A stretch of DNA of 26,353 nucleotides from a virus: positions 1-26,353 of IMG/VR virus record IMGVR_UViG_3300032092_001620, one strand, 5' to 3'. Each line of letters opens with the position of its first letter. The first letter of the stretch is position 1. The notes under the pieces were generated by a model. The model did not search any database. It was not told the DNA's origin and saw nothing but the letters and a program-made list of their open reading frames with translations. A program made the position numbers and the translations under genes. Shown here in pieces: positions 1,386 to 26,138 of the stretch.

Positions 1386-1428
1386 GTAGGACCTCTGTAG
1401 TTATCGAGGCGGTCGCTACATGTCCTAC
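1386..1428 (+). promoter_or_regulatory. Three-part hairpin in the phoH leader
   Basis: The plus-strand RNA can fold into one long hairpin: GTAGGAC (1386-1392) pairs with GTCCTAC (1422-1428), TGTAG (1396-1400) with CTACA (1416-1420), and CGA (1405-1407) with TCG (1413-1415) around a GGCGG loop. Fifteen pairs are interrupted only by bulges of 3, 4 and 1 bases. No T-tract follows, so it is not a terminator. It buries a possible ATG at 1420 and ends 28 bases before the ATG at 1456. It may be a translational or stability element for phoH; no known riboswitch class is recognised. Confidence 0.6.
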
Positions 1429-1455
1429 TTTACTAAAAAGTGGGAGATAACCTTA

Positions 1456-2178
1456 ATGAGTAAAAACACAAGAGTGAAAAAACGTTTTACTTCAGATGTG
1501 AATGTAATTGACTTTCATGCACATGTACCTGCAAAAAAGCAGCGTGTAACCTTGTTACCACGTAACAAGCACCAAGAAACTTACCTTTTTAAACTGCACG
1601 ACGACAACAAGAATATCTTGTTTGCCATCGGGCCAGCTGGCACGGGTAAGACGCTCTTGGCGGTGCAGATGGGAATCAAACTTTATCAAGAGGGAAAAAT
1701 TGATAAAATTATAGTCACAAGACCCGCCGTTTCCGTAGATGAGGATTTGGGATTCTTACCAGGGACGCTTAATGAAAAAATGGCGCCATGGACAAGACCT
1801 ATTTTTGATGTATTAGGAGAATACTATCAGCAGAAAGATATAGAAAACATGCTCTATGAGGGAGTGATAGAAATAAGCCCGCTTGCATATATGCGCGGCC
1901 GCACGTTTAAGAATGCTTACGTTATAGCGGACGAGATGCAGAATGCTACCCAGAACCAAATGAAAATGTTGCTAACACGCCTGGGTGAAAATTCTAAGAT
2001 GGTAGTAACAGGGGATCTTAACCAAGCCGACCGCCTAAAAGATAACGGCCTAGTTGACTTCATTGACAAAATCAAAGGTCAACGGTTAGATCACATCGAT
2101 GCAGTGTATTTTGATAGTCACGATATCGAAAGACACAAAGCCGTTAAGGAGGTACTAGACCTTTACGGTGACGATTAA
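1456..2178 (+). CDS. phoH: PhoH-family P-loop ATPase
   Basis: PhoH-like proteins are cytoplasmic P-loop NTPases related to the N-terminal half of superfamily 1 helicases. They are common in marine phages; their role there is unsettled, and phosphate stress and RNA metabolism are both proposed. Walker A GPAGTGKT is at about residues 59-66 and Walker B VIADEMQN at about 156-163, with the typical VTRPAVSVDEDLGFLPG and VVTGDLNQAD motifs between and after. I chose ATG 1456 because GGGAG lies 9 bases upstream. An in-frame ATG at 1420 would add 12 residues but sits inside a strong hairpin. The gene runs opposite to its neighbours and ends at a two-way terminator. Family assignment is secure. Confidence 0.95.
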   Translation: MSKNTRVKKRFTSDVNVIDFHAHVPAKKQRVTLLPRNKHQETYLFKLHDDNKNILFAIGPAGTGKTLLAVQMGIKLYQEGKIDKIIVTRPAVSVDEDLGFLPGTLNEKMAPWTRPIFDVLGEYYQQKDIENMLYEGVIEISPLAYMRGRTFKNAYVIADEMQNATQNQMKMLLTRLGENSKMVVTGDLNQADRLKDNGLVDFIDKIKGQRLDHIDAVYFDSHDIERHKAVKEVLDLYGDD

Positions 2179-2204: not shown

Positions 2205-2675
2205 TCATTCTATTTCCATCCAGGTATGATCACCCATATATTTGACCTGTGCTCGATATTCATAATTGTTGGGAACACCAGTTGACCAATCGTTGGGTCC
2301 GGTCAGTACTAGTAACATCTTTTCTTTACGAGTATCCCATACTAGCCAATAAGAATTACCCATAACCAGCTGAAACTGATACTCGGCAGCATGTACTAAA
2401 TCTGTTATATCGAGTCGTCGTTTGATTGCCTGCGCCTGCTTTTCTAATACTGCTACTAGTTCCATAATACGATCATACTCTTGTTGAGCATAGATCCTAG
2501 CATGATTGATCATTAGATCTTTCTGTTTTGTAACAGGTACTAGATCAAATTTAACTCCGCCTGCTTCCGTGGGATATTCTGAAACATTCCTATTGAAGAA
2601 AGGAATTACTGAACCTGTTGATGTAGAATCATAGCTTGTTCTTCCTTTAGCAGAGTTAGATTTTTTGTCAGTCAT
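2205..2675 (-). CDS. DUF2452 domain protein, 156 residues
   Basis: The C-terminal part (residues about 90-156) carries the pattern I associate with DUF2452: YQFQLVMGNSYWLVW, then LVLTGPNDW and a closing MGDHTWMEIE. The N-terminal 25 residues are Ser/Thr-rich and probably disordered. Residues 55-90 are helical (QQEYDRIMELVAVLEKQAQ). The biochemical role of the family is unknown. The gene overlaps the 3' end of the clamp-loader gene by 8 bases and lacks a clear ribosome site, which suggests coupling to it. In T4 the clamp loader's small subunit gp62 follows gp44; this protein sits in that place but does not resemble gp62. Family call fairly confident, function open. Confidence 0.8.
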   Translation of the reverse strand: MTDKKSNSAKGRTSYDSTSTGSVIPFFNRNVSEYPTEAGGVKFDLVPVTKQKDLMINHARIYAQQEYDRIMELVAVLEKQAQAIKRRLDITDLVHAAEYQFQLVMGNSYWLVWDTRKEKMLLVLTGPNDWSTGVPNNYEYRAQVKYMGDHTWMEIE

Positions 2676-3591
2676 TAACGTGACTAAGTCTAATCAGTGT
2701 AGCCGCTAGGTTAATTTCTGGATCACTAACTAAGGTATGATCCACTAGTCCTTGCTTGATAATAAGAATAGCTTTCTCCTGTGAAGGTTCTTCACCAAAG
2801 ATGCTAACATTCTCATAAAGCCAACGATAAATGTCTTCCATTTCTTCTGGCCTAGCCTGTCCGCATACTAGTTTACGTGCTTCGCTAATCTTGCCTTTCT
2901 TAAACAGATCAATCATTTCTACACGATAGTCGGTGCTTGAGTCAGATGATTCGGGACTGTGTAATTTACCATCTAGACTATTCATTTGTACATTGTTGAT
3001 ACACTTGCGTAGATCCGGATATGTTGCTGACACATAAGTTGCTAGAGTTTCTAGATCAAACTCGATGTTTTCTTTTTGCAAAATAGTTTCAACACGTTTG
3101 ATGAATTCTGTCATATCTGTTTTTTCAATATGCAGACGCTGACAACGACTATGCAATGCGGGAATAATCTTGTTAGGATAGTTACAGGTGAGAATAAATC
3201 TTACACTCTGACTGTATTGTTCCATTAGGTTACGCATAGCTGGCTGCACTGACTGATGATTAAGATAGTCAGCTTCGTCAAGAATAACAACTTTAAAATC
3301 ACCAAACGGCATTGTTTGACAGAACCCGTCTAGTTTATCTCTAAGCCAGTCAATTTTACGACCTTCCTTACTAGCATTAACTGACAATACATCTGTGTCT
3401 TGAACACCTAACATCTTAATAAGAATTTTTGCCAGCGTAGTTTTGCCTACGCCTGCGTTGCCACTAAACAACAAGTGAGGAATACTGCCTTCAGCAATCC
3501 AACTTTCAATCTGTGCTCGTTGATGATCATCTTTAAATACATATCCGTCTAAGGTATCTGGACGGTATTTCTCAACCCATAGTTCTTTCAT
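2668..3591 (-). CDS. 44: Sliding-clamp loader ATPase subunit (T4 gp44-like)
   Basis: AAA+ ATPase of the RFC/gp44 type, which opens the sliding clamp (gp45) and loads it on primed DNA at the replication fork. Visible motifs are WVEKYRPDTL at the start, Walker A GNAGVGKTT (44-52), Walker B VVILDEAD (101-108), sensor-1 region LTCNYPNKI (134-142) and the arginine-finger SRC motif (148-150). At 307 residues it is close to T4 gp44 (about 319). It starts by an ATGA overlap with the 45-residue gene and should be transcribed from the strong promoter at 3745-3773, which suits early expression. No gp62 partner is visible in this window. Assignment is secure. Confidence 0.95.
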   Translation of the reverse strand: MKELWVEKYRPDTLDGYVFKDDHQRAQIESWIAEGSIPHLLFSGNAGVGKTTLAKILIKMLGVQDTDVLSVNASKEGRKIDWLRDKLDGFCQTMPFGDFKVVILDEADYLNHQSVQPAMRNLMEQYSQSVRFILTCNYPNKIIPALHSRCQRLHIEKTDMTEFIKRVETILQKENIEFDLETLATYVSATYPDLRKCINNVQMNSLDGKLHSPESSDSSTDYRVEMIDLFKKGKISEARKLVCGQARPEEMEDIYRWLYENVSIFGEEPSQEKAILIIKQGLVDHTLVSDPEINLAATLIRLSHVND

Positions 3592-3784: not shown

Positions 3785-4153
3785 TTATTTGCTCACAAAT
3801 GGAGCCAACTCCGGCGGCGTCCACCCTATGGGTTTCAATACCTTACCGTCCTCACGCTTACGAACCTTGCCGGTCTCTTTGTCGATCTTGGCAAAGTTTG
3901 TACTCATAACTTCTTTCCAAGCACTTTCGCCGTTGAATCCTGCGCTATGAATAGCACCAATAGTAACAACTAGGATATCAATTAATGCATCCAACTGTTC
4001 AACTAAGTCATCGGCAGCAACTGCTTCTTTAAGTTCTTGATGCTCTTCTTCGATCAAATTTAAATACATTTTATATTGTGATATTGAATAAGCATCCACT
4101 GCCTGATCACAGGCCCGCATGAATTTTTCTTGATCTCTAAACGGATTGGTCAT
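3785..4153 (-). CDS. mazG: MazG-like nucleotide pyrophosphohydrolase
   Basis: All-alpha NTP pyrophosphohydrolase of the MazG/HisE group, which splits NTPs or related nucleotides to monophosphates and pyrophosphate with Mg2+. The metal-binding signature is visible: EEEHQE (35-40) and DALID (55-59) on paired helices, followed by ILVVTIGAIHSAGFNG. The end (KVLKPIGWTPPEL) is typical of phage members. At 122 residues it is a single-domain form. Marine phage MazG proteins have been proposed to alter host nucleotide or alarmone pools; the substrate here cannot be read from sequence. It starts by an ATGA overlap with the co-chaperonin gene and is followed by a terminator. Confidence 0.88.
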   Translation of the reverse strand: MTNPFRDQEKFMRACDQAVDAYSISQYKMYLNLIEEEHQELKEAVAADDLVEQLDALIDILVVTIGAIHSAGFNGESAWKEVMSTNFAKIDKETGKVRKREDGKVLKPIGWTPPELAPFVSK

Positions 4154-4539
4154 AGCTCTCTTCCAATCATTGCGTCTTCAGGCGGCGCCTCATCAGAAAC
4201 CATTAACATACATTTTGTGTCAATTTTTCTAATAATTTTCTCACCTTCATCATCTTCGATCTTAATACCACGTGTCCAACGTCCGTGTTCAATTAACACC
4301 CATTGACCTACACCGACATCTTGTTGGTCATCTCCGACTGCATATACTTTAGCCCATCTAGGATGGACTCCGTGTGCCTTGCCGTTATCACTTTGAAGAA
4401 TAATTCCACCACTGGACACTTGTTCTCCAAAATTCATGTCAATTACAATTACATTATCAGTTAGCGGTCGAAGAGCAGATACTTTCCATGCATTGATGTT
4501 TACACCTGCATTTTTTTGAAATCCTAAAGTTTCGTTCAT
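4150..4539 (-). CDS. GroES-like co-chaperonin (gp31-type)
   Basis: The protein has the GroES fold pattern: ALRPLTDNVIVID (22-34), a mobile-loop hydrophobic motif GGIIL (44-48) that would dock on GroEL, then AKVYAVGDDQ and GQWVLIEHGRW. In T4, gp31 replaces host GroES so that GroEL can fold the major capsid protein gp23. A similar role in capsid folding is likely here. It has an N-terminal extension of about 20 residues and a C-terminal tail relative to bacterial GroES. The ATG at 4539 has AGAGGA at good spacing. It lies 8 bases after the 71-residue gene and overlaps MazG by ATGA. Confidence 0.85.
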   Translation of the reverse strand: MNETLGFQKNAGVNINAWKVSALRPLTDNVIVIDMNFGEQVSSGGIILQSDNGKAHGVHPRWAKVYAVGDDQQDVGVGQWVLIEHGRWTRGIKIEDDEGEKIIRKIDTKCMLMVSDEAPPEDAMIGREL

Positions 4540-4547
4540 AAATCCTC

Positions 4548-4763
4548 TTATCTGCTATCTTTGCTGTCTGTATGATATTCTGTGCTTGCTTCTTCACGCT
4601 TGCGAACAATTTTGCCACCTGGTCCTAATTCGTCACCACGAGCGTTCATTCGAGCATTACCTACTGCTAGAGTGTTTTCGTTTTTAATTCTTAGCTTATC
4701 GAGATCAATTTCTTTACCTTGCATTGATCTGTATACTTTTGCTGGTGCTGGTTTCATTGCCAT
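4548..4763 (-). CDS. Small conserved-looking phage protein, 71 residues
   Basis: Function not recognised. It is a charged, glycine-containing protein with KVYRSMQGKEIDLDKL near the start, VGNARMNARGDELGPGG in the middle and a polar, probably disordered tail rich in Glu, Ser and Asp. I recall similar short proteins in T4-like marine phages, always unassigned. The start is firm: AAGGAG lies 7 bases before the ATG at 4763. It is the first gene before the co-chaperonin and probably shares its transcript. Confidence 0.78.
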   Translation of the reverse strand: MAMKPAPAKVYRSMQGKEIDLDKLRIKNENTLAVGNARMNARGDELGPGGKIVRKREEASTEYHTDSKDSR

Positions 4764-4793: not shown

Positions 4794-5294
4794 TTATCTC
4801 AAGAATTCACGCCAGTCTAAATTATATTTCACGCTGTCAATTTTGTGTACACCTAACAAAAATAACACGTAACTAGCTACACTGCTTCCTCTACCTACAC
4901 CCCAAACTATGCTATTAGTTTTTAAGGTATCTACTGTGTACTTAAGAACTCTAAGAAGATCTAGCATATTGCGTTCTCTAAATTCTTCTAGTTCTTCTAT
5001 TAGACGTTGATAGTTTTCTTTAGGGCATAGCGTTACTAAAATTTCTTCAATGTCTAATTTTTTATACTCTTCCGGCATAAACCAATCACTCTGACAAATT
5101 TTATCAAAGTCGGCTACTTCAATGTCAAAGTTTTGATTGAGTTTTAAGTTAATTTCGGAGTATTCGGCTAGTTGTTTAATGCCAACTGTTTCATTTACAA
5201 TAATTTGATCTAATTGATCTATATGACCTTTGTAGATAAGGTCTATAATATCATTGTCTTGAAATATAGGATTGCCGTACTTGTCTGATTGCAT
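4794..5294 (-). CDS. DnaE-like fragment lacking the catalytic aspartates, 166 residues
   Basis: The C-terminal 50 residues match the C-family DNA polymerase (PolIII alpha, DnaE) palm motif. GVGRGSSVASYVLFLLGV (132-149) parallels GPGRGS-type sequence in DnaE, and KYNLDWREFLR (156-166) parallels the FDLLFERFLN stretch. In DnaE the catalytic PDFDVDF aspartates follow immediately, but here the protein stops. The preceding region (QLAEYSEINLKLNQNFDIEV, then FMPEEY) also resembles the DnaE linker between PHP and palm domains. There is no PHP domain. It therefore cannot be a polymerase alone; it might bind nucleotide, primer end or clamp, or inhibit host PolIII, all inference. It has no clear ribosome site and starts right after an inverted repeat. 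Confidence 0.75.
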   Translation of the reverse strand: MQSDKYGNPIFQDNDIIDLIYKGHIDQLDQIIVNETVGIKQLAEYSEINLKLNQNFDIEVADFDKICQSDWFMPEEYKKLDIEEILVTLCPKENYQRLIEELEEFRERNMLDLLRVLKYTVDTLKTNSIVWGVGRGSSVASYVLFLLGVHKIDSVKYNLDWREFLR

Positions 5295-5311
5295 TTAACT
5301 ATTTTAGTTAA
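5295..5311. repeat. Inverted repeat abutting the start of the DnaE-like gene
   Basis: TTAACTA (5295-5301), loop TTT, TAGTTAA (5305-5311): a perfect 7-pair stem that touches the ATG at 5294 and includes the stop codon of the 77-residue gene. No Shine-Dalgarno sequence is visible here. It may limit translation of the DnaE-like gene. The stem is AT-rich and weak. Confidence 0.4.
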
Positions 5312-5537
5312 CTTTAATCAGTTTGTCAAGATCTTTGTCTCTGTTTTGAGCCAATTGCTCGATATTTTTTATTCTTCGAGCTCTTAATTCCTCATTGTAC
5401 GTGTCAAGGAATAAGGAAATTTGTTGTTGCACATCGGGATTTTTAGACTGCCAATACTTTCTGCCTAACTCTTGTATTTTGGACTCAATTTCCAAATCTT
5501 TAAGTTTAGACAAATCTTGCGCTAGGGGGTGTATCAT
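5304..5537 (-). CDS. Small helical phage protein of unknown function, 77 residues
   Basis: Not recognised by function. It is almost entirely helical and charged: KLKDLEIESKIQELGRKYW, then QQQISLFLDTYNEELRARR. That composition suits a helical bundle or coiled coil. It starts by an ATGA overlap with the 186-residue structural gene and precedes the DnaE-like gene by 9 bases. Similar short proteins occur in marine T4-like phages as far as I recall. It could be a small virion, scaffold or adaptor protein, but nothing in the sequence decides this. Confidence 0.75.
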   Translation of the reverse strand: MIHPLAQDLSKLKDLEIESKIQELGRKYWQSKNPDVQQQISLFLDTYNEELRARRIKNIEQLAQNRDKDLDKLIKVN

Positions 5538-6094: not shown

Positions 6095-8652
6095 GTTATA
6101 GTTGTCCTATCGTTTCTAAATACGATGTATTTATCAGCGGAATACCCGGTGACAGAATCTATTATATATCTATCAATTACATAGTCTATTTGGCTAAAAT
6201 CAAAGTTTCTATTCTTAATATTCAGCAAAACATCATCAGCCATACCAGGTTTACAGTAGCAAAGCGGTATTGCCTTTACGTAATCTAATTCTTGTACTTC
6301 ACCGTCTTGAATAGTACGCATCCATAGCGGTAAGTAATTTCTTTCTTTTAACCCTAATTCTTTTATTCTTTTGCGCCAAATTGACACACTTGACGGAAAC
6401 TTGTATGCACTATAAGGATCTTCAGGAAATACATCTGAACGGTCTACAGTGGCACTAAATGGATCAGGAGCATTCCAATATTTTGTATCTAAATCAAACG
6501 GTCCGTTGTAGTATTGATTATTTTGATCCGTAGTAATAGCTCGTTGTGAGGGTGATGTATTAATCATACTTGGCAGATATTTCTTGCCTACTTCTAACGG
6601 ATCTATTACATCTATATAGATAACTTCGTAAACAACATCATTAGTTCCGGTGATTTTAGCTTTGGCTTTTTTAATGTCGCCTAATTTAAAACGTTTTTCT
6701 TTGTGATTTCTATTAATCACACTAACTGTTTGAGATGCTGATTTTGTTTCTATACCAGCAAACACTAACATTCTTAAATCAGTTTGTATACCAAAGTTTG
6801 CGTCACTGGGTCTATATATTGAATTGATAGTAAACACATTATTGTCAGTGATAAATGATCTAAACAAATCTCTTTGATTTTGTTTTAAGAATGGCTTAAC
6901 AGTTAGATTGCTGTAAAGTCTATCATTAGGAGTATCAATTGCAAGTGTAAATGTTCTTGAAACTGTACTGTAGTTGGTAATGTCTCTAGCTTCCACTGTG
7001 AATGTATATTCTTTGTCAAAGGTTGTCTCGTTAAAATCTAAAGTAAAATTGTTGTTATCAAATGTAATAATACCTGGTTCGGTTTGTGTACCGAATTGTC
7101 GAACCTTGCCAACAATCTCCCCGTCAAGATTTAATGTAAGTCCAGGCGGCAATGCACCTAAAGTTTTAACGTAAAGTATAACAGCATTTGCCAATGTTGT
7201 TTCAGCACTTAGTGACAGTGTGCTTATTAAGTTAGCTTGAATAGTTCCTAAAGATGTAGGAGTGACCCAGGTTATAATACTGTCTATTTCACCAATGATC
7301 TGTACACCAAACGTTCTTCTGGAATTGGCTCTTTCAAGTTTATCGCTATATCTAGTGGCTAGAATTGTAAATTCGTAACTTTTAGTTATGGCAGGCTGAT
7401 AAGGTAATACGCCAAACACTTCAGAACTTCCTGGATCAAATTGCATACCTGGAGGTATTTCACTAGTAGTTCCTAATGCAATCCATGTATCATTGGGAAT
7501 GGCTTTAGCTAACACTGGTGTAACTGTCAGCACAAATTCTGTCGAACTTACAGTTGATACATTAGTAATAGTGTAGATAGTTGAGTCAGCACCGTCAACA
7601 TAATTTTTAAGAGTGATCTTTTTACCCGTAGTTGGAGTTCCGCTAGCATCTTTTATTCTAATCAAGTTTCTAGTTATTTTATTTTCTGTACTTAATGTAG
7701 TAGATGCTCTTCCGGTAATCTTTGGATTTACATTTTCTAATTCGTAAGTAATAGGACCTAGTTCTATTCCTGTGTAGACATCTAATTTAAATGTTTGATA
7801 GTTATTAGCTCTCTTAGTTCCAAGATCTGACGCAGTTTCCCAAATAGGAGATCTAACATATGTGGTATCTACTGTATATGCACCCACACCTGCATAAAAA
7901 GAAATGTTGTCTGCTCTAAAATAATCATCACCGATGACATATATTTTAAATGTTCGTTCAACACTAGTGTCACCGTCAGTAACTACAACAATAAACTCGT
8001 AGTATCTATTGATCTTATTAGGCGTATAATTGATAAAACTATCGTACCCCGATTCTGGTTGGTATCCAAAATCGTATGCTACGTCGTCATATATAGTTGT
8101 ATCATATGCACCGTTACCTGCAGTCTCAGGTATTCCTAGTGCAGGTTGAATCCAACCTACAATTCTACCTGTTTCTGTTAAAATAAGACCAGGAGGTAAT
8201 TCTCCTAATTTTTTAAAATACTTTAAACTCTGCCCAGCAGACGTATCGAAATCTGTAGCCACTAGTTGGAAATCAATATATGTACTGTCAAGCACATAGT
8301 ATTGATCGGTATTTAACACAGCTAGACTTCCCGCTGCTGTTTGCCATATAGGAACGTCTGCACCTTCGACAGTTAGGAAAAATGTACGATCTGCAATTTG
8401 CTCTCCGTATTTTGCTCTAACAACAAATTCATAGTCTGTACTTCTAGGTACTTCGGCAGCAGTGCCAGTTATTTTATCTTCGACAATTCTCAAACCGTTA
8501 GGCAATCTTCCTGATATAACAGTAAATGTTAGATTAGTACTATCTTGGAACCCATTAGTGTAACTAACAGGCAGATCCTGATTTATAATAGTGCGTTCTT
8601 GGATAGTATTGAACCTATAACCAGATCGTTCAGTCCAGATAGATAATGCCAT
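6091..8652 (-). CDS. Large Ig-like (He_PIG) virion protein, 853 residues
   Basis: The protein has four copies of the 'LPPGL...G.I.G...' pattern of putative Ig (He_PIG) domains: LPNGL (50-54), LPPGL (152-156), IPPGM (399-403) and LPPGL (501-505). Each is followed by a strand such as YEFVVRA, YEFTILAT or YTFTVEARD. Residues from about 580 to 853 form a different, mixed domain containing WRKRIKELGLKERNYLPLWMRT and a Cys pair (LCYCKPG). There is no signal peptide, as expected for a virion protein. It probably forms part of the baseplate or fibre attachment. The ATG at 8652 has AAGGA 7 bases upstream and overlaps the protease stop by 1 base, so the two are coupled. Confidence 0.85.
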   Translation of the reverse strand: MALSIWTERSGYRFNTIQERTIINQDLPVSYTNGFQDSTNLTFTVISGRLPNGLRIVEDKITGTAAEVPRSTDYEFVVRAKYGEQIADRTFFLTVEGADVPIWQTAAGSLAVLNTDQYYVLDSTYIDFQLVATDFDTSAGQSLKYFKKLGELPPGLILTETGRIVGWIQPALGIPETAGNGAYDTTIYDDVAYDFGYQPESGYDSFINYTPNKINRYYEFIVVVTDGDTSVERTFKIYVIGDDYFRADNISFYAGVGAYTVDTTYVRSPIWETASDLGTKRANNYQTFKLDVYTGIELGPITYELENVNPKITGRASTTLSTENKITRNLIRIKDASGTPTTGKKITLKNYVDGADSTIYTITNVSTVSSTEFVLTVTPVLAKAIPNDTWIALGTTSEIPPGMQFDPGSSEVFGVLPYQPAITKSYEFTILATRYSDKLERANSRRTFGVQIIGEIDSIITWVTPTSLGTIQANLISTLSLSAETTLANAVILYVKTLGALPPGLTLNLDGEIVGKVRQFGTQTEPGIITFDNNNFTLDFNETTFDKEYTFTVEARDITNYSTVSRTFTLAIDTPNDRLYSNLTVKPFLKQNQRDLFRSFITDNNVFTINSIYRPSDANFGIQTDLRMLVFAGIETKSASQTVSVINRNHKEKRFKLGDIKKAKAKITGTNDVVYEVIYIDVIDPLEVGKKYLPSMINTSPSQRAITTDQNNQYYNGPFDLDTKYWNAPDPFSATVDRSDVFPEDPYSAYKFPSSVSIWRKRIKELGLKERNYLPLWMRTIQDGEVQELDYVKAIPLCYCKPGMADDVLLNIKNRNFDFSQIDYVIDRYIIDSVTGYSADKYIVFRNDRTTIT
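6128..6135 (-). promoter_or_regulatory. T4-late-like promoter element GATAAATA
   Basis: The minus strand reads CTGATAAATACAT inside the last codons of the Ig-like protein gene. With a start about 6 bases downstream, the leader to the ATG at 6094 would be about 27 bases. It also encodes Asp-Lys-Tyr, so chance is possible. Confidence 0.35.
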
Positions 8653-11309
8653 TACAGAGTCCTTCTAATTCTTCTTCTTGGGTAAACTGCCCCAGTTGCT
8701 GGTCTAGGTTGGTAATTTAATTTAGGAAACGTATTTCCTGACGTTGCTCGTTCTTTATTATAATATAAAAATAAATTAGCAGAACCTTGTAGATCCTGAC
8801 CGTTAGTAGGGCCGTTCGAGTTGGTAGTTATTTGATTGGCTTTTGCATGTCCTAGTATATAGGCTTTGGCCTGTACTTGATTCATATAAGGATATGTTTC
8901 TAACGCACACGCAAGTACTCCACATACTTGCGGGCTTGCCATACTAGTGCCACTGAACTTGCCAATAAAATAACTTCCATTCCTAGAATCACCGATGCCG
9001 CTAGGTAGTGCGCTGACAATATGCGTACCGGGTGCATACAGGTCAACTCCTGGGCCGCAGTCACTATATTGTACCTTTTGATCTGTAGATATAGAGTCAA
9101 TTGATCCTACACATATTGCCGGAAGTTCAAATTGTCCTGTTGTAGAATTGTCATTTGCTGTTGGGCTAGTTCCTCTCATATAGAAATAAGGTTGTGCTAC
9201 ACTATCGGGATATCTAGTAGCCATTTCAAAAGTGTTGTTCCAATCTAGTCCACCTGGCACATCATGTTTCCATCGACCGTTACCAGCAGCACCGACCATA
9301 ATAATACCTTCGGCGTATAAGTCTTCAATATCTACATCTGATGCAGCTACTCTAGCAGGAATACGCTGACCACTGATAAATCCCCACGCATTTAATTGTT
9401 CAGTAGTAAATGCGCCAGTTGTCTTTCTAGAATTTACACCTACTTGCAAATCAATTTGAGTTGGAGTAGCTTCATAAAACACGTACTCACATACCATATT
9501 TGGTGAACCTAATATACCAGAAGTACCTGCAGCACCTTCCATTCTTATATTAAATGTTCTGCTCCCTGCAGTGCCTTGTGTAGTGTAATAAATTCTCTGT
9601 ACACTGTTATCGGCAGCACTCCACATGATCTTAGGAAGATTAGGAGAACTTTGATTAACAGTTGACCATACTGTAGAACCTGCTCCAAATGTTAGGTAGA
9701 AGTTTGTGCTAGGATATACTTCATTATAAGTAGTTCCGAGATATGTAATAGGAAACGGTAATGCCAGTGTCCAGTACCCGTCATCATTATTACCAACTGT
9801 TGGCGTAGTTGAGGATGTCCATCCCGTTGGTGTAGATAGTGAGTTTGTTATGCTACTAACAGATGCAGTAGCCGGTGTGCTTTCTGTTACTACTGTTAAA
9901 CTCAATGCAGTTCCAAACAGTACCGACCCAGCACCGCTAATATCGATAGTATTATTAAATATGATAGTATACACTGCTGCATTAGGTAAGTTAATAGTTT
10001 CTCGAATGTCAGTTTCTAACGTACCACCATTTGTTGTTGAACCTGCATCTTCAGTATATGTTGCTACAGCGGTTACACCTTGTGTAATAACAATAGAACT
10101 ACTTAATGACATTGAGCCCGAAACAGCATCCATTGCAACATTATTAATCAAATCTAAGTCAGCTGGTCCTTGTACTGTAATGGTATAACTTGCATTAGGC
10201 TGTGATAGTTCAATAAAATATGCCTGTTCTCCAGTTTGCGTCCATGAGGCCGGTTTAGTTAAGATGCTACCGCCTGGCGCCGTATAAGGCCCAGTAGTTG
10301 TTATCCTGTTCCCGGCATTTTCAAATCCAACTAGGGTTGCTAATCTTGCATTAGAAGTACATACTCCGCTGAATCCTGTGTAAACGGTTGACCCTGCAGG
10401 AGTGTATCTAGTTCCTCTATAGGTTACGGCGGTAATATCAGTTAATGACCATTCGCTAGGAAAAATACTTTGTCCCCAACTGTTGTTAACAATAGTAGGA
10501 TTTTTTCTTCCTAAGGCAGGGTTTGATGCTTTATTTCTGTGAAATGCACGAATGTAATCAAATACATAACTAAAGTTTCCAGGATTACCAGTATCGTAGT
10601 ATAAGTTATAAATGTTTGCGCTACGTGCCCAACCTTGTGTATTACCTGCAACTGTTCCGGCAACGTGTGTTCCGTGATCCCCGACACCGTAAGAATATGT
10701 ACCGTTAGCGCCGTTGCCTATCTCTGCACTATGTTGAAACCAATTGTATTGAATAGCTCTAGAACCTCCAGTTCCGTCGGCGTTTACTGCATACTCTGGA
10801 TGATTCCATACAATACCATTAGTATCACAAATCACCACATCGACATTATTACCTGTTTCAGTTAGCGTTATAGTGCCAGTCTGTGCAGCAGTGCCCGTGC
10901 CGTCACCTTCGTACCCTGTACCTCCCCAGCCTGATCTCTGAGTACCTTCGGCACATCTTAACAGCCCCCAATTTTTCATGGTTCCACTAGTGCTAGGTGA
11001 CTTGTCCCAAGCTGTACTAGTTTGCTCAACAGCAGTTGTTCCTGCTTGGATACCTAAATAGTATGGAGCAATTGAAATTGTTTTAATTCGTGGATCTTTT
11101 CTTAATTCTTCTACTTCTAACTCAGTTAAAAAATAATGAGTATTTCTACTAGTAGTTCTACGGTGTAGACAATCTACACTTCTTAGTAAATCTATATTAG
11201 GCGGGCTTTTCCCTTCGGTTTCTAAATCAGCATATAAGCTATCTAAATCTTCGAAGTTATTAACAGTTACAATATATTCTTTTCTTTTAATGTAATCTGA
11301 TATAGACAT
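8652..11309 (-). CDS. Subtilisin-family (S8) serine protease with large insertion, 885 residues
   Basis: All subtilisin active-site motifs are present: Asp162 in VVICDTNG, His212 in DHGTHVAGTVAG, oxyanion Asn677 in VGAAGNG and Ser789 in FSGTSMASP. NNSWG at 275-279 is also family-typical. Between NNSWG and AAGN lies an insertion of roughly 350 residues, beta-rich, with a segment (DDGYWTLALPFPITYLG, about 509-525) like modules in phage fibres. No signal peptide is seen, and residues 1-100 may be a propeptide-like domain. Sitting between two structural genes with 1-base spacing, it is probably carried in the virion or used in its maturation. Its target, whether host surface protein or phage fibre, is unknown. 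Confidence 0.9.
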   Translation of the reverse strand: MSISDYIKRKEYIVTVNNFEDLDSLYADLETEGKSPPNIDLLRSVDCLHRRTTSRNTHYFLTELEVEELRKDPRIKTISIAPYYLGIQAGTTAVEQTSTAWDKSPSTSGTMKNWGLLRCAEGTQRSGWGGTGYEGDGTGTAAQTGTITLTETGNNVDVVICDTNGIVWNHPEYAVNADGTGGSRAIQYNWFQHSAEIGNGANGTYSYGVGDHGTHVAGTVAGNTQGWARSANIYNLYYDTGNPGNFSYVFDYIRAFHRNKASNPALGRKNPTIVNNSWGQSIFPSEWSLTDITAVTYRGTRYTPAGSTVYTGFSGVCTSNARLATLVGFENAGNRITTTGPYTAPGGSILTKPASWTQTGEQAYFIELSQPNASYTITVQGPADLDLINNVAMDAVSGSMSLSSSIVITQGVTAVATYTEDAGSTTNGGTLETDIRETINLPNAAVYTIIFNNTIDISGAGSVLFGTALSLTVVTESTPATASVSSITNSLSTPTGWTSSTTPTVGNNDDGYWTLALPFPITYLGTTYNEVYPSTNFYLTFGAGSTVWSTVNQSSPNLPKIMWSAADNSVQRIYYTTQGTAGSRTFNIRMEGAAGTSGILGSPNMVCEYVFYEATPTQIDLQVGVNSRKTTGAFTTEQLNAWGFISGQRIPARVAASDVDIEDLYAEGIIMVGAAGNGRWKHDVPGGLDWNNTFEMATRYPDSVAQPYFYMRGTSPTANDNSTTGQFELPAICVGSIDSISTDQKVQYSDCGPGVDLYAPGTHIVSALPSGIGDSRNGSYFIGKFSGTSMASPQVCGVLACALETYPYMNQVQAKAYILGHAKANQITTNSNGPTNGQDLQGSANLFLYYNKERATSGNTFPKLNYQPRPATGAVYPRRRIRRTL

Positions 11310-13138: not shown

Positions 13139-13147
13139 TATTTAGCT
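13139..13147 (-). promoter_or_regulatory. T4-late-like promoter element AGCTAAATA
   Basis: Minus-strand ACCAGCTAAATATAG overlaps the stop codon of the desaturase gene. Start about 6 bases downstream would leave a leader of about 14 bases to ATG 13119. The wider word CCAGCTAAATA is identical to that before the gene at 1295. Confidence 0.55.
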
Positions 13148-13852
13148 GGTTCTAACTTTTGCTAAACCTAGCATACTTAAAGTGCGTATATAAAACCAAC
13201 CTATGTCAAATTCCCAGGATTTTACACTTAACTTTGCACTAGCTGGTGCTAGGTGATGATTGTTGTGCAATTCTTCTCCACCAATAATAATACCCCAAGG
13301 TACAATGTTCTTGCTAGAATCTTTAGTTTCTCCATTGCGATATCCCCACCAATGCCCAATACCGTTGACAACACCTGCTGCCCAGAATGGTATCCATAAC
13401 ATTTGAATACCCCACACAATTAAGCCCCATGGTCCAAAGAACACAAGATCTATGATCAACATTAGAAGAATACCAAGGCGGCAGTGTGGAGTATAAAGTT
13501 TGCGTTCAATCCAGTCATCCGGAGTACCTTTACCGTATTCTATAGTCATACGTGCATCTTTTGCCGCTAGATAATAGTAGTAAACGCCCCTGAAGAATAT
13601 ATTTTTAATACCGTATGTAACTGGACTATGAGGATCACTATCTTGATCTGTAAATCTATGATGCTTACGATGTATAGCGACCCACTGTTTAGTAATCATA
13701 CCAGTAGTTAGCCACAGCCAGAAACGCATGGTATGTGCAACTATTGGGTTAAACTCCACTGCTCTGTGTGCTTGGCTGCGATGCAGATACAGAGTAACGC
13801 AGGCGATAGTAATGTGGGTAAGTAGTAGTGTTATTAAAATTATAGTCATCAT
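13142..13852 (-). CDS. Fatty-acid desaturase (acyl-CoA delta-9 type)
   Basis: Membrane di-iron desaturase that introduces a double bond into a fatty acyl chain using O2 and electrons from a carrier. All three histidine boxes are intact: HRSQAH (24-29), HRKHH (61-65) and HNNHH (196-200), plus NGIGHWWG (163-170), typical of the delta-9 acyl-CoA group. Hydrophobic segments lie at about 2-22, 40-58 and 126-165. At 236 residues it is shorter than most bacterial members but complete in motifs. It lies inside the fibre block, after a terminator and before the 602-residue fibre gene. It probably alters host membrane unsaturation during infection; substrate and timing are inference. The ribosome site is weak (GTAGG). 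Confidence 0.92.
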   Translation of the reverse strand: MMTIILITLLLTHITIACVTLYLHRSQAHRAVEFNPIVAHTMRFWLWLTTGMITKQWVAIHRKHHRFTDQDSDPHSPVTYGIKNIFFRGVYYYYLAAKDARMTIEYGKGTPDDWIERKLYTPHCRLGILLMLIIDLVFFGPWGLIVWGIQMLWIPFWAAGVVNGIGHWWGYRNGETKDSSKNIVPWGIIIGGEELHNNHHLAPASAKLSVKSWEFDIGWFYIRTLSMLGLAKVRTS

Positions 13853-24994: not shown

Positions 24995-25363
24995 TTATAC
25001 CTCTAAGTGATCAACGTAGTCATCTGCTACTGAAAAACTAGATCCGCAGCCGCAGGTCGTAGTTGCGTTGGGATTCGTAATTGTAAATGAACTTCCCATA
25101 AGTTCGTCTTTGTAATCTATTTCAGCACCCTGTAGATACTGCATACTCATAGCATCTACAAGCACTTTAAATTCGTCTAGAGGAATTTCAAAGTCATCTT
25201 CGTTTGTTACTTCGTCGAAGGTAAAACCATAGCTAAATCCGCTACATCCTCCCCCTTGAACAAATGTACGTAATGCTAGTTTAGGATTACCTTCTTCGTA
25301 TAGAAGGTCTTTAATTTTTAATCTTGCTGAGTTGGAAATTGTTATCATAATGATATTTATCAT
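24995..25363 (-). CDS. A-type iron-sulfur carrier protein (IscA/ErpA/HesB family)
   Basis: A-type carriers hold a [2Fe-2S] or [4Fe-4S] cluster and pass it to target enzymes. The three cysteine ligands are in the usual places: Cys40 in [11 protein letters not shown] and Cys104/Cys106 in CGCGSSF. The hallmark segment [16 protein letters not shown] (80-95) precedes the second pair. Length (122, or 117 from the ATG at 25348) is normal. Neither start has a clear ribosome site; the second, [16 protein letters not shown], resembles family starts better. The stop overlaps the ribosome site of the giant fibre gene. It may support Fe-S or di-iron demand in the infected cell, or act in virion assembly; the role is inference, the family is secure. 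Confidence 0.92.
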
Positions 25364-25393: not shown

Positions 25394-25681
25394 ATGTTTA
25401 TCACAACAGAGACAGAAATCACAGTCCACACTAGGATCAGCAAGCTAGGAGTAGAACACCAATATAACCGCACTCGAACAGTAGCAGTGTTTCGTTGTGA
25501 TAACTGTGGGGAAGGATTTCGTAGACTGAAAGAAAAGGTCAGTCCCAAGAGGCTGAACAACAATTACTTTCACTGTTGTGAACACTGTGATGCCAAACGT
25601 TTCGCCCAAAAGAAAGGCGTCGAGCGACGCCTAATATGGGATATGCCAGTATCAAGTACTGCGGATATCAGCCGACTCTAG
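25394..25681 (+). CDS. Zinc-ribbon protein of unknown function, 95 residues
   Basis: One of two convincing plus-strand genes. Two CxxC-type knuckles are visible: FRCDNCGEGF (Cys35, Cys38) and CCEHC (Cys61/62, Cys65), spaced as in a zinc ribbon, followed by a basic segment (DAKRFAQKKGVERRL) that could touch nucleic acid. I recall similar small proteins in cyanophages but no assigned function. It is divergent from the IscA-like gene, with only 30 bases between them, and converges on the HNH gene with a 14-base overlap. No strong ribosome site is seen before ATG 25394. A regulatory or nucleic-acid-binding role is possible. Confidence 0.8.
   Translation: MFITTETEITVHTRISKLGVEHQYNRTRTVAVFRCDNCGEGFRRLKEKVSPKRLNNNYFHCCEHCDAKRFAQKKGVERRLIWDMPVSSTADISRL
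25606..25632 (-). terminator. Minus-strand terminator inside the zinc-ribbon gene
   Basis: AGGCGTCG (25615-25622) and CGACGCCT (25625-25632) form a perfect 8-pair GC-rich inverted repeat. On the minus strand it is followed by TTCTTTT, giving a normal terminator shape 36 bases after the HNH stop codon. On the plus strand the same bases encode Gly-Val-Glu-Arg-Arg. Confidence 0.65.
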
Positions 25682-26138
25682 GAAACGCACACATCTTACC
25701 GTTCTTGATCAGTTTAGAAATAACAGAGTTCATATGGCGCTGTTTATTTTTTTCTGGGCTAAGAGCAAAGATACCTGTCTTATTTTCTTTAGCAGATTGG
25801 CCGCCTTTCTTTCCACCGATACTTCCTGCTCTAGATGCATGTCCTAATTTGAAACCGCATTTACCTTCTTTGTTTGCTTTAGTAGCGGCCAACGATGCAA
25901 GACGACTTCTCTCTTCTGGGGGTATTGAATGTCTTCCAGAGATTAATAAACACGCGGCCCAATCACCTTGGGAGTAGTGTATATCATAGTGTTCCTGCCA
26001 AGTGACAAGTTTAAGATTATTAATATCATTATTAGAATGGTGTCCGTCGATATGATGAATCTCCATACCTTCTGGAATTTTTGTTCCGTGATATTGTTCG
26101 TAAATTTTTCGATGTTGTTTAGTTTCGTATTTTGCCAT
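25668..26138 (-). CDS. Free-standing HNH homing endonuclease
   Basis: The HNH nuclease core is clear: MEIHHIDGHHSNNDINNL (25-42) followed by KLVTWQEHYDIH (43-54), giving His28-His29, Asn41 and His50/His54 as the likely metal and catalytic residues. The C-terminal half is basic with a glycine-rich GSIGGKKGGQSAK (105-117), like the DNA-contact repeats (NUMOD3-like) of phage homing endonucleases. No intron or intein boundary is visible around it. It sits between the SOD and zinc-ribbon genes. Start 26138 has GGGAA 8 bases upstream, partly in a small hairpin. It is a probable selfish element that cuts rival phage genomes at this locus. Confidence 0.9.
   Translation of the reverse strand: MAKYETKQHRKIYEQYHGTKIPEGMEIHHIDGHHSNNDINNLKLVTWQEHYDIHYSQGDWAACLLISGRHSIPPEERSRLASLAATKANKEGKCGFKLGHASRAGSIGGKKGGQSAKENKTGIFALSPEKNKQRHMNSVISKLIKNGKMCAFPRVG

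Follow-up and report, generated by a model that had tools for sequence, protein, structure and literature searches.

The open reading frame found at positions 4794-5294 (minus strand; ATG start, 166 aa) of the DNA analysed here, a 26,353-base fragment of an uncultured virus (IMG/VR record IMGVR_UViG_3300032092_001620, hereafter the window), is almost certainly the N-terminal half of a two-gene, miniature DNA polymerase III (Pol III) alpha. It is probable that this protein, referred to below as the stub, forms part of a minimal C-family polymerase that is kept as two proteins and rebuilt in trans. Such a division is already described, since a 'split minimal Pol III alpha' was predicted in group 2.2 jumbo phages by Iyer et al. 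2021 (PMC7824862, section 13), and the stub belongs to that kind. What is added here is the membership of this fragment, a cut point placed to within a few residues, a tally of the catalytic triad, counts of co-occurrence and synteny, and a 141-kb genome holding both halves.

When the stub was scanned against Pfam, PF07733 (DNA_pol3_alpha) was the sole family at E <= 1, matching residues 82-165 with an E-value of 1.2e-10 and 41.9 bits (cut-off 23.9), with no PHP and no other Pol III domain at that threshold. Residues 4-166 match phrog_11127 (labelled 'DNA polymerase', length 171) with an E-value of 2.2e-39. A phage-specific N-terminus (approximately residues 1-64) is followed, within 4794..5294 (minus strand), by palm helices and the motif GVGRGS, and the C-terminal end reads NLDWREFLR. 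The chain contains the start of the palm only, PHP, thumb and fingers being lacking; PDFDVDF and all three catalytic aspartates are absent, the protein stopping just before that motif. The preliminary description, made from the letters alone, had proposed a DnaE-like piece without a PHP domain that covers GxGRGS and ends before PDFDVDF; the PF07733 and phrog_11127 matches bear it out on each of these points.

Relatives of the stub were found by tblastn in 65 of the 50,697 records of a phage collection (E <= 0.01; best 6e-27). One of the phages concerned, Sharanji, has E. coli K-12 MG1655 entered as its host. In an alignment of nine rows, formed by the window protein and, with their extents as annotated, eight phage proteins that share 24-41% identity with it, the motif GxGRGS is invariant, and the invariant residues comprise R97, E101, G132, G134, R135, G136, S137 and E163. 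When the single stub sequence was compared with those of solved structures, Pol III alpha came up at an E-value of 0.68 and the anti-CRISPR AcrIF14 at 0.76. When the C-terminal 76 residues were used as query, 919 records matched at E <= 10, and the 60 listed are mostly annotated DnaE-like polymerases. A stub-like match also lies near the C-terminal end of phrog_7513 and phrog_13169 (461 and 463 aa), two phage families that may represent further polymerases with a division at about this point.

The end of the stub is a conserved feature. A pattern scan of IMG/VR gave at least 600 matches, and 599 of those listed encode a relative of the stub; among the best 80 of these at least 599 loci, 77 end 29 residues past GxGRGS, two end after 30 and one after 35. 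Since the scan pattern contains GRGS, the conservation of GRGS among these loci carries no independent weight, and that of the end point does. Two of the 80 (L036 and L037) encode proteins 100% identical to that of the window, and the reading frame stays open in relatives down to 46% identity. The stub could in principle be a relic or an assembly truncation of a full-length polymerase, and in the accessible text of the CBB paper (PMC5259590) a stand-alone 172-aa alpha, the only such product noted there, is indeed termed truncated. However, against a relic stand the end point shared by those 77 loci, the open frame in distant relatives and the neighbours kept in 47 of 47 eligible loci (see below), so that this explanation is improbable enough to be set aside; clean ends, rather than random truncation, had also been read from the window's own sequence.

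The motif missing from the stub is found in relatives at the start of another gene that stands alone (phrog_11778), the product of which has about 190-215 aa. In five phage records PF07733 matched the stub only, and sub-threshold matches to PF17657 (fingers) in three of them fell on ORFs of about 200 aa, which led to phrog_11778; PF17657 missed the other two records, in which the second-half gene is found by tblastn. The second-half ORFs match phrog_11778 with E-values from 3.8e-73 to 5.9e-104, and one of the proteins (P0001) matches the phage Pol III family phrog_405 (E 3.2e-9). Pfam matches to the second half fell below cut-off in three of three proteins, so its family membership rests on phrog_405, the fold and the motifs; in a single-sequence comparison with solved structures, Pol III alpha was obtained at an E-value of 0.1 and YpeB at 0.49.

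As regards the motifs, the second halves of phages Phosso and RaK2 carry TDIDID at their start, MPDIDIDFADR is the literal start in three IMG/VR loci (L127, L133 and L159), and the annotated Atu_ph07 gene begins just past the motif, its frame extending upstream with DIDF. Further along the translations come KMDFL, KVDIL or KFDFL and, near the end, FKK[SP]H. Both DxDxD and KxDxL are kept in 80 of 80 IMG/VR second halves and are invariant in 57 aligned rows; in one locus (L135) a stop cuts the protein short past the third aspartate. The scan pattern for this set was the FKKSHA region, so the aspartates provide an independent test, and the conservation of the fingers motif within it does not; around the conserved histidine this motif reads KK[SAP]H[AS]xxY, with KRAH or RKSH in a few. 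The available text of PMC3919608 describes D401, D403 and D555 (E. coli numbering) as absolutely conserved throughout the C-family, and D405 as conserved in this way within the DnaE groups. On the basis of motifs and of the alignment to structure 2hpi, the phage residues D3, D5 and D69 are assigned as the counterparts of D401, D403 and D555, and the phage proteins also have an aspartate at the position of D405 (D7, invariant in the 57 aligned rows).

AlphaFold2 models were obtained for the stub (pLDDT 88.2, pTM 0.68) and for the second half of locus L133 (pLDDT 91.4, pTM 0.83). For the stub, Foldseek returned nothing at E <= 0.001, its rows 1-16 all being C-family polymerases; for the second half, C-family polymerases fill rows 1-14, with a best E-value of 1.5e-4. 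In VIA-align, residues 65-166 (approximately) of the stub lie on the palms of Pol III alpha and PolC with Z-scores of 7.8-12.5, residues 1-64 (approximately) being barely covered by these alignments; the kinship with Pol III alpha that had been read from the letters is also found when the predicted structure is compared. The second half aligns with Z-scores of 5.7-9.0 over 176-192 residues, and the first unrelated row has a Z-score of 4.1.

These alignments locate the division. Residue 166 of the stub aligns to Taq 455 (structures 2hpi, 3e0d and 4iqj, which we take to be those of Thermus aquaticus), E. coli 393, residue 413 of 5lew and 7pu7, and PolC 964-965, while residue 1 of the second half aligns to Taq 461, E. 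coli 400-401, residue 419 of 5lew and 7pu7 and, in two of the three PolC rows, residue 970; in PolC 9qrn the cut is thus 964|970. The end of one protein and the start of the other abut, with a gap of 5 residues (6-7 in E. coli), so that the two models tile one palm. The 191 residues of the second half span about 384 residues in E. coli (401-784), of which about half are gone, and the parts absent would comprise the greater part of the thumb and some of the fingers. Taken together, the two halves resemble bacterial DnaE/Pol III alpha (PF07733, PF17657) in palm fold, GxGRGS, DxDxD and KxDxL, and differ from it in lacking PHP, about half of the stretch corresponding to E. coli 401-784 and the C-terminal domains, as well as in being encoded by two genes.

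In the phage collection, 65 records were matched by the stub, 64 by the second half and 62 by both; these 62 include many close relatives and RefSeq duplicates and so do not represent 62 independent events, and the length of the stub itself was checked in nine of them. The three stub-only records contain single frames of 1073, 1149 and 761 aa, each with GRGS and PDIDxD motifs, and are therefore long single-chain C-family polymerases and not stubs. The first two frames come from unverified records (L250, 'Staphylococcus phage SA 1306 Kay', 1073 aa; L251, 'Enterococcus phage Efs 1-1-1', 1149 aa), which may be bacterial contigs. The second half without a stub was seen in a 109-kb Klebsiella phage record and in a phage of Clostridioides for which a dnaE is annotated. 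A profile search found one copy of each half in nine of nine genome records of named phages, one of which carries the label partial, the two genes being at least 10.9 kb apart, and one copy of each in all five IMG/VR contigs of at least 180 kb. In RaK2 the pair is formed by YP_007007317 and YP_007007279. Altogether, 23 IMG/VR contigs were searched, six of which hold both halves, twelve the stub only and five the second half only, a split that fits fragmentation of the contigs; the two long contigs whose stubs are closest to that of the window (91 and 109 kb) showed no second half in the sequence searched. Both halves are also present in the 141-kb circular genome of an Alishewanella phage, which falls below the usual jumbo phage limit of 200 kb. 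In this the distribution goes beyond the jumbo phages for which the split was predicted by Iyer et al.

It had been suggested in the preliminary description that the stub is retained as a binding module or as a means to interfere with host Pol III. A non-catalytic binder of a nucleotide, a primer end or the host Pol III, acting alone, would suit a protein with a nucleotide-binding motif and no catalytic aspartates, in a window where no second half is seen. However, the catalytic half, cut at the matching point, is present as a second gene in all 14 stub-bearing records that are long enough (9/9 named records and 5/5 contigs), besides being found in 62 of the 65 stub-matched records, which makes a lone binder very improbable; the suggestion that the stub serves only these purposes is not supported.

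A six-frame pattern scan of the 26,353 bases of the window gave no PDFDVDF-like motif, and a profile search of the same bases with the second half found none; this last result lacks a known positive and is weak alone, although a related profile (A2) matches in 20 of 32 other records. Taking both nulls into account, the stub is not the product of a local frameshift. The possibility raised earlier, that the missing half might lie nearby in frame, is thus answered in two ways: no such half was found in the 26 kb, and in relatives one is indeed encoded, elsewhere in the genome. We infer that the window phage also carries it. A B-family polymerase, in whose company a DnaE-like piece had been called out of place, was present in 14 of 14 relatives tested (the nine named records and the five IMG/VR contigs), and none was found in the 26-kb fragment. 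In NC_042013 (W05), LR588166 (W01) and OQ508957 (W07), the B-family polymerase matches lie in more than one open frame, which suggests that there the replicase gene itself is in pieces. A proofreading exonuclease of the DnaQ type, considered as an obligate third part in view of the CBB and Atu_ph07 papers, did not hold up as one, PF00929 being found in six of the 14 records and in none of the five IMG/VR contigs.

The system can therefore be set beside that of Iyer et al., as it is presented in section 13 of their paper. It is alike in the window's stand-alone N-terminal NTP-binding piece without PHP and, among relatives, in the distant gene for an Mg2+/template-binding piece and in the family B polymerase; it differs in that the window is a 26-kb fragment from an uncultured virus, in which neither the second half nor the B-family polymerase was seen. 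Iyer et al. suggest that the minimal form is the ancestral one. Papers on phage Atu_ph07 (PMC6102473) and on a Sinorhizobium phage (PMC11242549) list, in the text available, Pol III subunits. Within the accessible open-licence literature, the split is described in PMC7824862 only, and no test of the activity of a two-piece enzyme was found. In PHROGs v4 the same two halves appear as families, phrog_11127 and phrog_11778, both labelled 'DNA polymerase', labels that are silent on each being half an active site. The second half is annotated as 'putative membrane protein' in several records (GAP32, CBB, Muenster and some Erwinia phages).

The surroundings of the two genes are different and conserved. 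The 47 stub loci regarded as eligible have at least 5 kb of downstream sequence. Directly upstream of the stub lies a 77-aa ORF (5304..5537, minus strand) with relatives in 47 of 47 eligible loci and no convincing family match, possibly a co-transcribed partner of the stub; directly downstream lies a 71-aa ORF (4548..4763, minus strand; phrog_14844), also in 47 of 47. These two flanking ORFs are candidate partners of the split polymerase. They are followed by a GroES-like co-chaperonin (4150..4539, minus strand; PF00166, phrog_931 head morphogenesis; 47 of 47) and by the clamp-loader large subunit (2668..3591, minus strand; AAA domain PF00004, gp44 lid domain PF21328; 46 of 47), and the cluster ends at PhoH (1420..2178, plus strand, opposite to the rest; PF02562; 40 of 47). 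The close neighbours pointed out before any search was made are hence kept in all eligible loci as far as the 77-aa, 71-aa and GroES-like ORFs are concerned. Two virion proteins near the stub are found in 41 loci each, while MazG (18/47) and a 78-aa ORF (3/47) are not conserved neighbours. The ORF at 2205-2675 was considered as the clamp-loader small subunit (gp62) and rejected: it matches DUF2452 and has relatives in three of the 47 loci.

Around the second half, a primase is found in 63 of 63 eligible loci, a replicative helicase in 42 of 42, a 488-aa ORF, 'UvsW-like' according to the RaK2 annotation, in 57 of 58, and a convergent phrog_11637 ORF (at 9121-9492, minus strand, in L133) in 66 of 66; three further query ORFs are poorly conserved (26/70, 11/78 and 2/67). 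According to these tallies, the stub sits with the clamp loader and the second half with primosome genes.

It is proposed that the stub would give the first part of the palm and GxGRGS, a motif presumed to bind the incoming nucleotide by its triphosphate, and that the second protein would give the three aspartates that bind metal, together with fingers of reduced length. The gene for this second protein lies next to those for primase and helicase, at a distance from the stub gene that ranges from about 11 kb to over 100 kb. The two proteins would then associate in trans, a step that is likely, rebuilding one palm active site. The predicted product is a mini-polymerase that lacks PHP, has about 360 residues and retains little of the thumb, and it might serve as a second, specialised enzyme (in gap filling, repair or the synthesis of one strand) beside the B-family replicase. 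Whether the predicted pair is active as a polymerase is judged about even: with 191 residues for the approximately 384 of E. coli, DNA binding could be poor.

Alternatively, the halves may assemble into something other than a template-directed DNA polymerase, such as a derived nucleotidyltransferase (for end-tailing or as a primase helper) or an adaptor with a structural role in the clamp loader or the primosome. Such a product would be in keeping with the loss of about half of the matching E. coli stretch, with the 26 residues that separate, in P0001, the last aspartate of DxDxD from the conserved histidine, with the location of the pieces in clamp-loader and primase-helicase clusters and with the family B replicase already present in relatives. 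However, the full triad and the fingers motif are kept, beyond the needs of a scaffold, and this alternative is considered unlikely. A more ambitious form of the two-protein polymerase may also be put forward, in which the C-family enzyme of about 360 residues, perhaps the smallest of its family, is an active second polymerase of T4-like phages, one part being made with the clamp loader and the GroES-like chaperone and the other with the primase-helicase, and in which the N-terminus of the stub and the 77-aa and 71-aa proteins replace the PHP scaffold; we regard it as possible, with the balance somewhat against it.

If the two-protein enzyme is active, it would offer a natural minimal core, in the form of two small proteins, of the family of polymerases responsible for copying bacterial chromosomes. 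It would then allow a direct test of which of PHP, the thumb and much of the fingers can be dispensed with, and of what a second polymerase brings to a phage that has a family B replicase. As for databases, entries named 'DNA polymerase' for the stub or, in several records, 'putative membrane protein' for the second half may each stand for one half of a single predicted enzyme, in which case the latter name is misleading.

Other genes of the window can be mentioned. A protein of 885 aa with a subtilase domain (PF00082, 5.2e-25, in two stretches) is encoded at 8652-11309 (minus strand) amid tail- or structure-like genes, and at 13142-13852 (minus strand) the phage fragment has a metabolic gene of host-like type, for a fatty acid desaturase (PF00487, 1.3e-16). 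Towards the far end are found an iron-sulphur cluster biosynthesis protein (24995-25363, minus strand; PF01521, 1.7e-18) and an HNH endonuclease (25668-26138, minus strand; PF13392, 3e-14).
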